In this document: positions 9,245 to 56,336 of the stretch, piece after piece
Numbering within the stretch: position 1 is the stretch's first letter
Layout of the letters: every line of letters starts with the position of its first letter
Source: an uncultured Alphaproteobacteria bacterium
GTDB taxonomy: Bacteria; Pseudomonadota; Alphaproteobacteria; Rhodobacterales; Rhodobacteraceae
Assembly: GCA_902611605.1 (NCBI GenBank)
Contig: CACMAH010000001.1
Location: forward strand, 1 to 64,000
DNA length: 64,000 nt
Direction of reading: 5' to 3'
Translations under genes and position numbers: made by a program
The notes under the pieces: model-generated
Told to the model about the DNA's origin: nothing
The model's input: the letters and a program-made list of their open reading frames with translations, nothing else
Database searches by the model: none

Positions 9245-10234
9245 ATGATCAAATGGGGAATACTTTCTACTGCTAAAATTGCAACTGAACAAATAATACC
9301 TGCAATACTAGAATCAAAAAATTCTATCATTTATGGAATTGCTAGTAGAGATTTAAAAAAAGCAAAAAAATTAGTAAAACAGTTTGATATAAAGGAAGCT
9401 TTTTCTTCTTATAAGGATATATTAAATTGCAAAAAAATTGATGCTATATATATACCACTACCAACATCACAACATATTGAATGGTCAATTTTTAGTTTAA
9501 GAGCACAAAAGCACGTGTTATGCGAAAAGCCAATTGCTTTAAATGTGAAAGAAATAGATAAACTAGATTTAGAAATAAAGAAATCCAACAGAATATTCTC
9601 TGAAGCCTTTATGGTTTATTATCATCCTCAGTGGAAAAAAGTAAAAAAATTAATTTCAGATGGTGAAATTGGAGATTTAAAACATGTACAAGGATGTTTT
9701 ACATATTTTAATATAGATCCAAAAAATATGAGAAATATACCGGAACTAGGCGGTGGAGTTTTACCTGATATCGGCGTTTACCCATTAGTAACAACCAGAA
9801 TGGTGACTGATCAAGAACCAATAAGTATAAGATCAAAAATTGAATATGACAAAAAATTTAAGACGGATATATACGCTAGTGTTGAAGTAAATTTTAAACA
9901 TTTTGATCTAAGCTTTTATGTTAGTACACAAATGTCTTTAAACCAAAAAATGGTATTTCACGGGAATAAAGGAAAAATTGAAGTACATTCACCATTTAAT
10001 GCAAGATTATATGGTGACGCAATAGTCTCACTAAGTAGATCTGATAATAATGAAAAAGTTTATTTTCGTTTTGGAGAAACAAATCAGTATAGATTACAAA
10101 TAGAGGCCTTTGCCCAAGCAATCAAAAAAAATGATTCTAGTGATTTGTTCTCAATTACAAATTCACGGAATAATCAAAAAATAATTGATAAAATTTTTCA
10201 ATCACACAAAATAAAAAAAACAGTTAAAATTTAA
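9245..10234 (+). CDS. Gfo/Idh/MocA family NAD(P)-dependent oxidoreductase
   Basis: KWGILSTAKIATEQIIPAI N-terminal Rossmann region, HVLCEKPIALN, GGGVLPDIGVYPL. Confidence 0.9.
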   Translation: MIKWGILSTAKIATEQIIPAILESKNSIIYGIASRDLKKAKKLVKQFDIKEAFSSYKDILNCKKIDAIYIPLPTSQHIEWSIFSLRAQKHVLCEKPIALNVKEIDKLDLEIKKSNRIFSEAFMVYYHPQWKKVKKLISDGEIGDLKHVQGCFTYFNIDPKNMRNIPELGGGVLPDIGVYPLVTTRMVTDQEPISIRSKIEYDKKFKTDIYASVEVNFKHFDLSFYVSTQMSLNQKMVFHGNKGKIEVHSPFNARLYGDAIVSLSRSDNNEKVYFRFGETNQYRLQIEAFAQAIKKNDSSDLFSITNSRNNQKIIDKIFQSHKIKKTVKI

Positions 10235-10263: not shown

Positions 10264-11217
10264 TCACTCACTAGAATTTGAAAAAATAAACCCCAGAAAG
10301 TTTAACAAAATTTGTGCTGCCAGAATTGCTGTGCTGTCAGTGGGATCGTAATCAGGGGCTACCTCAACTATATCTATACCAATTATAGAGTTCTGAACTG
10401 TTATACTTTGAAGCAGTTCTAAAACTTCATAATATAAAAAACCACCATGACTTGGAGTGCCTGTGCCTGGAGCAATTGATGGACAAAAAGCGTCTATATC
10501 TATTGTAACATAGAGTCTTTTTCCTTTTGGAATTCTCTTAGCAATATTTTTCATTCCAATTTTTCTTGCTTGTCTTACTGAAATGATATCACTACCCATT
10601 TCCCTTGCTTTTTCATAACCTTCTTTTGCAGTCGAAGAAACATTTCTTATTCCAACCTGGGTTAAACCTGAAACATAGTCTTTTTCTGCAGCTCTTCTCA
10701 TTGGATTCCCATGACCATATCTGACACCATGTCTTTCATCTACAAAATCAAGATGTGCATCTATTTGCAAAATATGAAAGGAACTTTCATCTTTATATGC
10801 TTCAATACAAGGTATATTTATAGAATGGTCACCACCAATAACTACTGGTAAACTTTTTGCATTTAGAGCAGCTTTAACAGCTTTACAAATATTATGATGG
10901 CTTTTTTCTGTATCAGTATGAACAATGTCAGCATCGCCAAGATCTACTATTTTGACAGATTTATCCAAATAAGTTTTTTCATCTTCATGATCATAAGCAC
11001 CTGCGTGTCCAAATGAAAATAATGTTGATGCTTCTCTTACGGCACGAGGTCCAAATCTTGCACCTGGCCTAAACTGAGTACCAAAGTCAAAAGGTGCACC
11101 TATAATAGAAACATCCGCTCTAAAATTATCCCAATTCTTTATATACTCTCTTTTTGCAAATGTAGAAATCCCAACAAAAGGTAAATCTAATCTTCCGTTA
11201 TCATAATTATTAGAAAT
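10264..11217 (-). CDS. Ureohydrolase family (agmatinase / guanidinobutyrase-like); probable non-canonical ATT start
   Basis: VVIGGDHSINIP, QIDAHLDF, VTIDIDAFCPSIAPGTGTPSHGG metal-binding motifs. Manual translation upstream of the listed TTG (10968) continues ISNNYDNGRLDLPFVGISTFAKREYIKNWDNFRADVSIIGAPFDFGTQFRPGARFGPRAVREAST..., a conserved ureohydrolase N-terminus; SD-like AGAGGT (11224-11229) is 6 nt before ATT (11215-11217). Confidence 0.85.
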   Translation of the reverse strand: MSNNYDNGRLDLPFVGISTFAKREYIKNWDNFRADVSIIGAPFDFGTQFRPGARFGPRAVREASTLFSFGHAGAYDHEDEKTYLDKSVKIVDLGDADIVHTDTEKSHHNICKAVKAALNAKSLPVVIGGDHSINIPCIEAYKDESSFHILQIDAHLDFVDERHGVRYGHGNPMRRAAEKDYVSGLTQVGIRNVSSTAKEGYEKAREMGSDIISVRQARKIGMKNIAKRIPKGKRLYVTIDIDAFCPSIAPGTGTPSHGGFLYYEVLELLQSITVQNSIIGIDIVEVAPDYDPTDSTAILAAQILLNFLGFIFSNSSE

Positions 11218-11316
11218 TGTAGTACCTCTTTTATTAAAATTTTCGTTTTAAGATTTTTTCAATTATGTATATTTAATATAAATTAAAAACTTAATCTACT
11301 CATCATTACAAAATCA

Positions 11317-12183
11317 ATGTTAAATAATTTTACAAAAAATTCTATTATTACGGATATTGGAAAAATTATTTATTACAAAAGGGGTGATGGTCCGCCTGTA
11401 TTGTTGCTACATGGCTATCCACAATTTAGTTTAATGTGGGAGGAATCTGCGCTCCTCTTATCGCAAAAATATACAACTATTATCCCTGATTTAAGAGGAT
11501 ATGGTGAATCTGCAAAACCAAAAGGATTACCTGACCACTCCAATTATTCTAAACGAGCAATGGCAAATGATCTTATACAAATCATGGATAGTTTAAAATA
11601 TCAAACATTCTCTGTGGTGGGTCATGATAGAGGTGGAAGAGTAGCTCACAGATTATGCAGAGATTTTCCCAATAGAACAGATAAAATGGTAGTACTTGAC
11701 ATTTGTCCAACTTTAGACATGTATAAAGCCACAAATAGCGAATTTGCTTTTGGTTATTTCCATTGGTTTTTTTTAATACAAAAATATCCGTTACCAGAAA
11801 AATTAATAGCTAATAATGCATCTATATGGTTGGATGACTGTTTTAATAGATGGTCGGGCGGTTTCAACTTTAGAAAAAAAAAGGAGGTATATTTGGAAAA
11901 GTTTAATAACCCTGAAACTATTCACTCAACATGTGAAGATTATAGAGCAAGTTTTAGTATCGATTTAGTGCATGATAAAGAAGATGCTGAAAAAAAATTA
12001 AATATTCCTATTCTAGTCTTATGGGGAAAACATGGCTTGATAAACAAGTGCTTTAATCCCATTGAAATTTGGCAAAAATATTCAGAGAAAGTTGTTATTG
12101 GAGAATCTCTAAATTGTTATCATTTCATACCAGAAGAGATCCCAAAAATTTTAGACAAAAAACTTAAGCATTTTTTGAAATAG
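11317..12183 (+). CDS. Alpha/beta hydrolase, haloacetate (fluoroacetate) dehalogenase-like
   Basis: HGYPQFSLMWEE, PDLRGYGES, GHDRGGR nucleophile elbow, FHW, CEDYRAS, YHF; spacing matches fluoroacetate dehalogenase catalytic residues. Confidence 0.82.
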   Translation: MLNNFTKNSIITDIGKIIYYKRGDGPPVLLLHGYPQFSLMWEESALLLSQKYTTIIPDLRGYGESAKPKGLPDHSNYSKRAMANDLIQIMDSLKYQTFSVVGHDRGGRVAHRLCRDFPNRTDKMVVLDICPTLDMYKATNSEFAFGYFHWFFLIQKYPLPEKLIANNASIWLDDCFNRWSGGFNFRKKKEVYLEKFNNPETIHSTCEDYRASFSIDLVHDKEDAEKKLNIPILVLWGKHGLINKCFNPIEIWQKYSEKVVIGESLNCYHFIPEEIPKILDKKLKHFLK

Positions 12184-25586: not shown

Positions 25587-26540
25587 TTACTTTACCATAA
25601 TACATAATATTTCAAAAAGAATTGATGATCCCAAAAATGCCGTGCCACCACTGGGGTCAAATGGTGGTGAGATTTCTACTACATCTGCACCAATCAAATT
25701 TAAACCATTAAGTTTTCTTACAACATCCAAAGCTTGAAATGAGTTAGGTCCTCCTACCTCTGGAGTTCCCGTTCCAGGTGCAAATGCAGGGTCTATAAAA
25801 TCAATATCATAGGAAAGATATGTTTTTTTATCACCTACTATTGATTTAACCTCAGAAATTACATCGGGGATTCCTCTTTCAAAAAATTCCTCAATTGTTA
25901 TGATTCTGATACCTTCACTTTTTGCAAAATCTCTATCCTCGCTATCATAGTTAGTTCCTCTTATCCCTACTTGTACAGTTCTCTTTGGATCAATTAAGTT
26001 TTCCTCAATGGCTCTTCTAAATGGGGTTCCGTGTGTATACATTTGACCATCAAAATAGCTATGGAATAAATCAGTATGGCTATCAAATTGTATCAAACCC
26101 ACAGGTTCATTCTTGGCTAGGGATCTAAGAATTGGCAACGAACAAAGATGATCACCTCCTACTGTTAAAGGTAAAATATTTAAATCTTTTATTTTTAAAA
26201 AATAACTTTCAATTCTCTTTAAACTATCCTCCAAACTTGCTGGGTTTGGTGCTATGTCACCTAAATCTGCACAGTTTTTTAAATCAAAAGGACGTAAATT
26301 ATTAACACCATGTTGAGCTCTAATCATTGTAGACATATCTCTGACTTGTCTTGGTCCATGCCTAGGACCTGGCCTGTTGGTTGTTCCAGCATCCCATGGT
26401 GCACCAATAATTCCAATATCAACTTCAGTAATTTTGTCATGACCTAAACCTACATGTGGAAGTCTCATAAAAGTTGGCATTCCAGCAAACCGGGGTAATT
26501 CAAAACCTGAAATTGGTTCAAAAAAACTATTTTTTCCCAT
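25587..26540 (-). CDS. Ureohydrolase family (agmatinase-like)
   Basis: GAPWDAGTTNRPGPRHGPRQVRDMS, VGGDHLCSLPI, QFDSHTDLF, SYDIDFIDPAFAPGTGTPEVGG. Confidence 0.9.
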   Translation of the reverse strand: MGKNSFFEPISGFELPRFAGMPTFMRLPHVGLGHDKITEVDIGIIGAPWDAGTTNRPGPRHGPRQVRDMSTMIRAQHGVNNLRPFDLKNCADLGDIAPNPASLEDSLKRIESYFLKIKDLNILPLTVGGDHLCSLPILRSLAKNEPVGLIQFDSHTDLFHSYFDGQMYTHGTPFRRAIEENLIDPKRTVQVGIRGTNYDSEDRDFAKSEGIRIITIEEFFERGIPDVISEVKSIVGDKKTYLSYDIDFIDPAFAPGTGTPEVGGPNSFQALDVVRKLNGLNLIGADVVEISPPFDPSGGTAFLGSSILFEILCIMVK

Positions 26541-44377: not shown

Positions 44378-46918
44378 TTGTCTAATCTATCGATAATAAA
44401 ATTTGCTTTTAAAGATTTAAGAGGTGGTTTAAGTAAATTTTGGATTTTTTTTATTTGTCTATTTTTTGGTGTACTTACTATTTCGTCAATTGGAACTTTT
44501 AGGGAAAGTATTAAAGAGGGATTACAAACAGAAGCATCTGAAATATTAGGCGGTGATATATCCCTTACTCTTGCTTATAGAGGTGCATCATCAGACGAAT
44601 TAAATGAAATAAAAAAAATTTCTTCTTCTTTCACAGAGGTTATTACTTTCAGAAGTATGGTTACTACAATTGATATTGGTGATGAATACAACCAAGCCTT
44701 AGTTCAAGTTAAAAGTGTAGATCAAAAATATCCATTAATAGGTAAAGTTACAATAGAACCAGAAATAAGTATAAAAGAGGCTTTAAAAAAAAATGGCGAT
44801 AATTATGGTATTTTAGTAGAAAATAATTTACTTGAACAACTAAATTTAGAGGTAGGTTCAAACTTAAAGCTTGGTGAATCTTTATACAAAATCAGAGGAA
44901 CCATGTCTAGTATTCCCGATATTGGCTCTAATGGTTTTAGTTTAGGCTCAAAAGTTATAGTAGATACTAATTCATTAAAAAATTCAGGATTGTTAAAACA
45001 AGGTACCCTTTTTGAAACAAATTACTATCTCAAAATTTCAAATAATAAAGATTTAGAAGCTGTAAAATCTCTTTTCTTAAAAAAGTTTTATGGCAAAGGC
45101 TTTCGCTGGAGAGATACTAGAAATCCAGCTCCTGGTATCGAAGCAGTAGTAAATCGGTTGTATTTCTTTCTCACTATTTTGGGTATGTCTGGTTTAATTA
45201 TCGGTGGTGTTGGAGTTAGTACTTCTGTTACTTCTTACTTAAATATTAAAAGAGGAACTATAGCAACATTAAAAACTATAGGTGCAACAAATAGCATATT
45301 GACTAGAATTTACTTAATTCAAATTTTGGCAATGTCATTTGTAGGAACTTCACTAGGCGCCATAACAGGTAGCTATCTGTTAAAATTAGCTGAACCTTCA
45401 CTTAATGCTGTTATTCCATTCCCCTTAAAAGTAGAGGTATTTATTCAGCCAATTTTAATTTCCCTTATACTGGGTATTCTTATAAGCTTAATTTTTTCCT
45501 TAATTCCTCTTTTTAACTTTTGCGATAAAAAAATTACAGACCTATATAGATCCCATAGTCTTAATAGTAGGTTGGAATTACCTAATTTACGTCAATTACT
45601 CTATATGTTTGGACTTATTTTTACTCTAATCATAATTATTTTGCTTATCTCTCCTGATATAACGTTAGCTCTTTGGTTTATTTTTGGATCAATATTTTCT
45701 TTTATCATTTTAAATTTGATGTCCTTATTCCTGAAGCACTCAACTAAAAAATTAATTACTACTAATAAAATTAATAAAATGCTTTCATTAAAATTGGCTT
45801 TGGCATCAATTGGTAGTGAAAATGGTGAAAATAAATCCGTCTTATTATCTATAGGGATTGGACTTATAATTCTTGCAACTATGGGCCAAATTGAAAAAAA
45901 TTTACAATACACGCTTACTAACGATATACCTAAAAAAGCACCATTATATTTTTTGATTGATATTCAAAAAAATCAAAAAGAAAGTTTGATTGATTCATTA
46001 AAAGAAAAAAAATTAATTTCTGACATTAAAACTGCTCCTATGCTTAGAGGTTTCATTACCAAGATAAATAATAAGGATGTGTCTGAATTAAAGATAGATC
46101 ATTGGGCTCTTAGAGGGGATAGGGGAATTACCTATGAAAACAAACCTACCACTGCTGAAAAAATAACTAAAGGTGAATGGTGGCCATCAAATTATGAAGG
46201 ACCACCACTAGTTAGTTTTGCTCAGAATGAAGCAAGTGAACTTGGCTTAAAAATTGGTGATACAATAACCGTCAATATTTTAGGAAGAGATTTGACAGGA
46301 ACTATTTATAGTTTTAGAGAAGTAAATTTTGCAACAATGGGAATAAATTTTTTAATGGTTTTTAACCCTAGCGCACTCATAAATGCTCCTCATACTAATA
46401 TTGCAACTATCTATGCACCTAAGAAATATGAAACAGAGATTATTAAAATCATAACTCAAAAATTTCCTAACGTTACATCAGTATCTGTAGGAGAAACAGT
46501 TAAAAAAGTAAAAGATATTATTTTGAAATCTTCATTAATTATTAAGTGGTGTGCTGCACTAATTATATTTCTGGGTTTTTTCGTCATTATTGGAGCACTT
46601 TCGACTTCTGAACAAAATAGGATTTTTGAGTCTTCTATTTTAAAAACACTTGGAGCTTCAAAAAAAATTATATTGTTATCTATTCTATTACGCTCTGTAA
46701 TTATTGGTAGCTTTGCAGGCTTAGTTGCAATAATCTTAGGTGCAATAATGTCGTGGGTAGTCATTTCGTATTTTTTAAATAGTGAATTTTCTTTTTTTGT
46801 ATCTTCTGCAATTTGGATAACATTAACTGGTATATTTATTTCACTAATTACAAGTACTTTTTTTGCTATTAAACCAATAAATTCAAAACCTGCAAAAATT
46901 TTAAAAACAATTGATTAA
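44378..46918 (+). CDS. ABC transporter permease, YbbP/FtsX-like
   Basis: 846 aa; IKFAFKDLRGGLSKFWIFF, LGGDISLTLAYRGASSDEL, YLNIKRGTIATLKTIGATN; TTG start. Confidence 0.9.
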   Translation: MSNLSIIKFAFKDLRGGLSKFWIFFICLFFGVLTISSIGTFRESIKEGLQTEASEILGGDISLTLAYRGASSDELNEIKKISSSFTEVITFRSMVTTIDIGDEYNQALVQVKSVDQKYPLIGKVTIEPEISIKEALKKNGDNYGILVENNLLEQLNLEVGSNLKLGESLYKIRGTMSSIPDIGSNGFSLGSKVIVDTNSLKNSGLLKQGTLFETNYYLKISNNKDLEAVKSLFLKKFYGKGFRWRDTRNPAPGIEAVVNRLYFFLTILGMSGLIIGGVGVSTSVTSYLNIKRGTIATLKTIGATNSILTRIYLIQILAMSFVGTSLGAITGSYLLKLAEPSLNAVIPFPLKVEVFIQPILISLILGILISLIFSLIPLFNFCDKKITDLYRSHSLNSRLELPNLRQLLYMFGLIFTLIIIILLISPDITLALWFIFGSIFSFIILNLMSLFLKHSTKKLITTNKINKMLSLKLALASIGSENGENKSVLLSIGIGLIILATMGQIEKNLQYTLTNDIPKKAPLYFLIDIQKNQKESLIDSLKEKKLISDIKTAPMLRGFITKINNKDVSELKIDHWALRGDRGITYENKPTTAEKITKGEWWPSNYEGPPLVSFAQNEASELGLKIGDTITVNILGRDLTGTIYSFREVNFATMGINFLMVFNPSALINAPHTNIATIYAPKKYETEIIKIITQKFPNVTSVSVGETVKKVKDIILKSSLIIKWCAALIIFLGFFVIIGALSTSEQNRIFESSILKTLGASKKIILLSILLRSVIIGSFAGLVAIILGAIMSWVVISYFLNSEFSFFVSSAIWITLTGIFISLITSTFFAIKPINSKPAKILKTID

Positions 46919-55436: not shown

Positions 55437-56222
55437 TTAATTTTCAGGTTTTTGTGCACGAAAATGATGAGGACAATGTTCACCAGTATCTAAAACTCTA
55501 ATCATAGCTTTCCAAGTTTTAATTTGATCTTCAATAAAGTTATTTGAAGTAATCTCCTCATAAGACTTTCTAGCTGGACCTGATAATATTTGTAATTCTT
55601 TTCTAGCTTCTTCTTTATACCATTTGTTCCTGTTATTCTTTTTTATAGAAACAAACCCACTTTTCTTTAATGCATTATAATATAATAATGGAGATCTCAT
55701 TCCAAAACCTAAATCCTCCAATTTCAAGTAATATTCCATCTCTTTTGATGGTTTTTGATCATGAGAAATTAACCAGTCTGAAAAGACAAAAAATCCTCCT
55801 GGTTTTAATACTTTAAAAACTTGAGAAAAAGTTTTTTCTTTATCAGGAATATGAACAAAAGAATCTTTTGAAAAAACTATATCAAAGCAGTTATCTTCAA
55901 AGGGTAAATTTGACTTGCCAATAAGAAGAATTTCAATGTTATCTTTTAATCGATTTTTTACTACTCTCCTAATAGCAGAATTTACTACATCTTCTTCAAC
56001 ATCTACGCCTATGACTTCTCTTGCACCATAATCTTTCACTAAGCTAACTGTTATACCACCTGCACCACATCCAACATCTAATATTTTTTTTTCAGTAAGA
56101 TCTAAACCATTTAATAACCTATTAATTTCTTTTTTGCCACCAGGTGACATATATCCGTCACCCCATAGTTTCTCTAAAAAAGAGATATGTGTAACATCAT
56201 AATGAATTTCTTCTTTACTCAA
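55437..56222 (-). CDS. SAM-dependent methyltransferase, phosphoethanolamine N-methyltransferase-like
   Basis: LWGDGYMSPGGKKEINRLL, ILDVGCGAGGITVSL, FSKDSFVHIPDKEKTFSQVFKVLKPGGFFVFSDWL. Confidence 0.8.
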   Translation of the reverse strand: MSKEEIHYDVTHISFLEKLWGDGYMSPGGKKEINRLLNGLDLTEKKILDVGCGAGGITVSLVKDYGAREVIGVDVEEDVVNSAIRRVVKNRLKDNIEILLIGKSNLPFEDNCFDIVFSKDSFVHIPDKEKTFSQVFKVLKPGGFFVFSDWLISHDQKPSKEMEYYLKLEDLGFGMRSPLLYYNALKKSGFVSIKKNNRNKWYKEEARKELQILSGPARKSYEEITSNNFIEDQIKTWKAMIRVLDTGEHCPHHFRAQKPEN

Positions 56223-56336
56223 GGTTAATTATCCTTTTTTAAAAATCCAGTTGAAAAAAATAGAAATGTAAAACAAAATTAATTTAATCCTAACATATGA
56301 TTAATATGATTTTATATCAAAAAGAAAGGAAAATAT

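Follow-up and report, generated by a model that had tools for sequence, protein, structure and literature searches.

Translation from ATT start codons is rare and often regulatory, as for infC and pcnB. To our knowledge, these two are the only E. coli genes with an AUH start, i.e. with AUU, AUA or AUC as start codon. In E. coli and many other bacteria infC carries a conserved AUH start behind a Shine-Dalgarno (SD) sequence, as do the genes of the alphaproteobacterial genus described here; the E. coli infC record reads ATT. The infC product is an initiation factor that regulates its own gene, whereas the gene at the centre of our analysis, a predicted ureohydrolase, would encode a metabolic enzyme. 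Mitochondria share with the genus the AT-richness, the ATT/ATA starts and the alphaproteobacterial descent. They have no SD-guided initiation and work with altered factors and an altered code; the likeness is one of resemblance, not of kinship. For pcnB of E. coli the AUU start was measured to limit translation, according to the account that PMC13009471 gives of Binns and Masters 2002. Like the ureohydrolase gene, pcnB has an AUU start and does not encode an initiation factor. It differs in gene and lineage, and the ureohydrolase start is predicted from sequence. In S. aureus, ribosome profiling and reporters revealed an AUU start for cvfC1 and AUA starts for ccpN and citZ; these starts provide about 10% of AUG expression, one of them varies with the medium, and the organism has four AUH sites in all, infC included (PMC13009471). 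With their conserved AUU/AUA codons and strong SDs, cvfC1 and ccpN resemble the ureohydrolase gene, though in a Gram-positive host. Precedents for conserved AUU/AUA starts behind strong SDs exist; what is unusual is to find several of them in ordinary genes of one genus.

The ureohydrolase gene occupies positions 10264..11217 on the minus strand of a 64,000-nucleotide stretch of DNA, called the window in the following. Its 5' region is bounded by a divergent alpha/beta-hydrolase-like gene (11317..12183, plus strand), and a Gfo/Idh-type oxidoreductase-like gene converges on it from the other side (9245..10234, plus strand). Both neighbours, which we named by reading their sequences, adjoin the ureohydrolase gene in the genus members examined. 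The reading frame extends without interruption from 11247 down to the stop codon at 10266-10264. The original prediction had placed a stop at 11245-11247; the in-frame stop that closes the frame 5' of the ATT is actually the TAA at 11250-11248, 11247 being the first open base. From this TAA to the conserved N-terminus our re-reading of the sequence and its open reading frames found no in-frame ATG, GTG or TTG, just as had been claimed. The first standard start codon is the internal TTG at 10968-10966, 83 codons past the ATT, such that the listed frame is indeed about 83 residues short: standard ORF calling yields only 234 aa from this TTG. Ahead of it, the SD motif AGAGGT (11229-11224) precedes the ATT at 11217-11215 by the spacer ACTACA, i.e. 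by exactly the 6 nt that had been proposed, and translation from the ATT gives the expected 317 aa. The predicted mRNA structure at the start was nothing unusual (z -0.14).

The encoded protein matched the Pfam Arginase model PF00491 over residues 34-307 (E 3.6e-80; 269.9 bits versus a cut-off of 22) and the NCBIfam agmatinase model TIGR01230 with 190.8 bits, above the cut-off of 174.3. The score for the agmatinase subfamily NF002564 (PRK02190) was 199.8, below the curated cut-off of 302. By its full-length family match above cut-off the protein is a predicted agmatinase-like enzyme of the arginase family, from which it would differ in the start codon only. In a phmmer search residues 8-313 aligned with residues 3-302 of 1wog, a solved agmatinase and the best solved relative. 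Since this alignment sets in at residue 8, the 83 residues before the TTG belong to the fold. They would be lost if translation began at TTG 10968, which is thus very unlikely to be the true start. A second ureohydrolase in the window (25587..26540) had been noted for its equal length. It does comprise 317 aa as well, but with an identity of only 34% this is a coincidence and provides no evidence. Overall, at least four genes of the arginase family are present in this small genome (window 10264-11217 and 25587-26540; G000:C4:37258-38130 and 45634-46560), the other three being 29-34% identical to the ureohydrolase described here.

We searched for orthologs in 101 related genomes and in 12 genomes of the genus. 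Five genus orthologs were obtained (100, 98, 92, 79 and 78% identical); the remaining 7 of the 12 genus genomes yielded none, perhaps due to incompleteness (60-89% complete). All five read ATT at the start. The SD and spacer before it were AAGAGGT-ACTACA, AAGAGGT-GCTTCA, AAGAGGT-TTTACT, AAAGGT-GATGAG and AAAGGT-GCTGAG, such that the letters of the spacer vary while its length of 6 nt after the GGT and the ATT itself stay constant. The two orthologs with AAAGGT carry one extra codon (ATT TCT AAA AAC AAT TAT). Outside the genus, a scan of named genomes found a standard in-frame start in 77 of 77 orthologs, nearly always an ATG at the aligned place; three outside orthologs have the ATG 13-15 codons upstream. 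The scan comprised 80 orthologs, and the three without a standard start were the genus single-cell genomes AG-414-O15, AG-911-F16 and AG-435-K15, which are already counted among the five genus orthologs and are not extra cases. Direct reading of the starts in relatives gave the same picture. In a tree of 46 orthologs the five ATT genes formed one clade (97/87), requiring one change, and the adjoining branch (L047) has ATG. The ATT start thus appears to have arisen once, in the ancestor of the genus. AT-richness alone was rejected as a cause, since Rhodobacteraceae loci with a G+C content of 37% (L093, L102) and 40% (L047) keep ATG at this place.

The stretch between the ATT and the TTG evolves like coding sequence. 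For codons 2-83, the pair G000/G002 shows 2/2/26 substitutions at codon positions 1/2/3, corresponding to 25 synonymous and 5 replacement codons, and the pair G000/G005 shows 11/5/41. Purifying selection on these codons was seen in every usable genus pair, and the frame is unbroken in all five species. Comparisons of the remaining sequence that involve L008 were left out because an indel misaligns them. The coding-type substitutions imply that translation covers the stretch upstream of the TTG, in support of the earlier view that the skipped N-terminus is conserved ureohydrolase sequence.

We hold with considerable confidence that the ureohydrolase gene is intact and translated from the ATT at 11217-11215 as a case of real non-standard initiation, and the ATT initiation proposed in the original prediction is very likely correct. 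The evidence that can be read from the sequences consists of the conserved ATT, the SD and its spacing, the coding selection on the N-terminus, the single clade and the further AUH genes described below. A single wrong base would suffice to turn an ATG into an ATT during sequencing or assembly; this explanation is refuted by the orthologs, with next to no probability left to it, as the same ATT stands in five separately assembled genomes, three of them single-cell genomes, and the AUH pattern repeats in other genes. In these five assemblies no ATG or GTG is restored, and none of the orthologs compared starts further downstream. The 234-aa frame returned by standard ORF calling is what one would expect from a gene that has lost its start, being either a pseudogene or the source of nothing but a shortened protein that begins at TTG 10968. 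Purifying selection on codons 2-83 in a frame that is intact in five species, together with an N-terminus that can be aligned to a solved agmatinase from residue 8 onwards, makes this very unlikely. A lost start codon, whether by pseudogenisation or by sequence error, had been named as the alternative to ATT initiation and misfits both the conserved ATT and the purifying selection. We attach similarly little weight to an entry of translation elsewhere, either at another nearby codon or by a shift from the out-of-frame ATG that lies shortly past the ATT within AAT TAT GAT. In the window the frame of this ATG ends after five codons (ATG ATA ACG GAA GAT TAG), and such an entry would leave unexplained the coding selection on codons 2-5 as well as the fixed spacing between SD and ATT in the orthologs.

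A stronger version of ATT initiation is that the weak start serves as a regulatory device, by which ureohydrolase translation would be kept low or be tied to the IF3 level or the growth state, in the manner of infC and pcnB. It gains some support from the conserved AUU/AUA starts of S. aureus, at which reporter expression goes down to about 10% and in one case responds to the medium (PMC13009471). Moreover, a single change would turn the ATT into an ATG, yet none of the five genus orthologs shows an ATG. On the other hand, most AUH genes of the genus have ordinary roles in metabolism or the cell wall, and the start of one of them (an FAD oxidase) alternates between ATT and ATG across species. 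Moreover, at 31% G+C, once ATG is dispensable, the third base should drift among A, T and C even in the absence of selection. We therefore regard a regulatory role as possible but rather doubtful.

For ATT initiation as such, we infer the start event, its efficiency and the tRNA/IF3 mechanism as follows. An SD stronger than the median would set the ATT in the P site of the 30S subunit. There the initiator tRNA-fMet (anticodon CAU) would pair with the A and the U, and the mismatch at the third base would be tolerated. The protein would begin with fMet, comprise 317 aa and be produced less efficiently than from an ATG. The ATT would have arisen once in the genus ancestor, and several further genes of the lineage would have fixed similar AUU, AUA and AUC starts.

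SD duplex energies were calculated with an assumed anti-SD and compared to those of 485 genes whose standard starts are shared; the median of this set was -3.9 kcal/mol. In this set the SDs of TTG and GTG genes were stronger than those of ATG genes. The ureohydrolase SD, with -7.2 kcal/mol, ranked within the strongest 16% of the 485 genes. Six AUH sites had energies from -5.5 to -9.4 kcal/mol, each in the strongest third, which fits a compensation of the weak codon, six screen-picked sites being few.

We also inspected the initiation machinery. The initiator tRNA of G000 (L142:17739-17815, minus strand) has the C1:A72 mismatch, and in its anticodon stem an A29:U41 pair stands where the first of three conserved G:C pairs would be. 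An initiator anticodon stem of this type occurs in 62 of 101 alphaproteobacterial genomes searched. Being common to most relatives, it offers no genus-specific explanation, and an altered initiator tRNA was rejected as the cause. This comparison rests on G000, the rRNA operon and the neighbouring tRNA being absent from the other genus assemblies. An altered IF3 was likewise rejected, as no obvious change was found with respect to relatives and E. coli. Neither IF3 nor the initiator tRNA provided a genus-specific cause of the AUH starts, and we accordingly suggest that initiation is guided by the SD in the ordinary way, with a mismatch at the third base. As a separate observation, a partial initiator tRNA is found near a tRNA-Phe at L173:9450-9494 (G006:C5:249450-249494); it lacks the 5' half and retains the 3' half, starting at the anticodon loop and ending with the CCA. 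From its sequence it looks like the attachment-site remnant of an integrated element.

Beyond what the original prediction had seen, the ureohydrolase gene is not the only one in the genus with an AUH start. We screened stop-to-stop frames in joined stretches of two genomes only, G000 (0.92 Mb, 31% G+C) versus G006 (1.83 Mb, 38% G+C), for conservation well upstream of any ATG, GTG or TTG with coding-like substitutions. The screen covered 612 non-overlapping reciprocal pairs, of which 550 remained after a codon-position filter, and returned the ureohydrolase gene plus four more genes with AUH starts conserved in the genus, whose names come from reading the sequences. The cell-shape gene rodA (G000:C1 start 142974; L124:17826-18986, minus strand) begins with ATA in 9 of 10 genus members and with ATT in the tenth, whereas each of the 12 orthologs read outside the genus has an ATG or GTG no more than two codons away. 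A class-IV aminotransferase gene (G000:C10 start 13412; L157:13403-14311, plus strand) reads ATA in all 9 genus members, with a GTG also present three codons upstream in the member G004; outside the genus an ATG lies within six codons in 12 of 13 cases and 16 codons upstream in the other. The FAD-linked oxidase gene, just outside the window (G000:C1 start 64924; L121:903-2513, plus strand), has ATT in five genus members and, in three, an ATG either at this position or two codons upstream of it. For an NAD-epimerase-like gene (G000:C8 start 9260; L155:8289-9275, minus strand) five members have ATT and five ATC, three of the latter with an upstream TTG as an alternative. The infC gene starts with ATA or ATC in the genus and in four relatives. 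When 77 other Rhodobacteraceae loci were screened as a control, the result was dominated by antisense shadow ORFs arising from GC-rich DNA.

From these sequence comparisons we consider it an even call whether start-codon selection is relaxed in the genus as a whole, with AUU, AUA and AUC stably inherited in about 1% of ordinary genes behind strong SDs and standard gene callers truncating or mis-starting the corresponding proteins. Gene calling restricted to ATG, GTG and TTG cuts the enzyme described here to 234 aa and would mis-start several others, rodA among them, such that the protein set of these uncultured marine bacteria would be misread. The genus combines several natural AUH starts with orthologs that carry ATG in other lineages and, in one case, also within the genus itself. 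It provides a ready comparison set for two questions: how a strong SD offsets a weak codon, and whether ordinary metabolic genes are regulated through their weak starts.

Several further frames drew attention. A sixth candidate, an alpha/beta-hydrolase-like gene (G000:C2:137351-136551, minus strand), has a probable ATT start after TTTGGAGAGCTAG in G000 and a possible GTG in G006. A folC-like gene (L157:2518-3828, minus strand, in G000:C10; G006:C4:73732-75054) has no standard start before its conserved N-terminus in either genome. The ZapE-like ATPase gene at G000:C2:73866-72952 sets in at an A-rich run and is without the N-terminal part seen in G006; a frameshift or truncation may be the reason. 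Finally, a gene in the window that we named ubiG-like by reading (55440-56228, minus strand) starts with TTG, and its counterpart in G006 (G006:C5:53288-54088) apparently with CTG.
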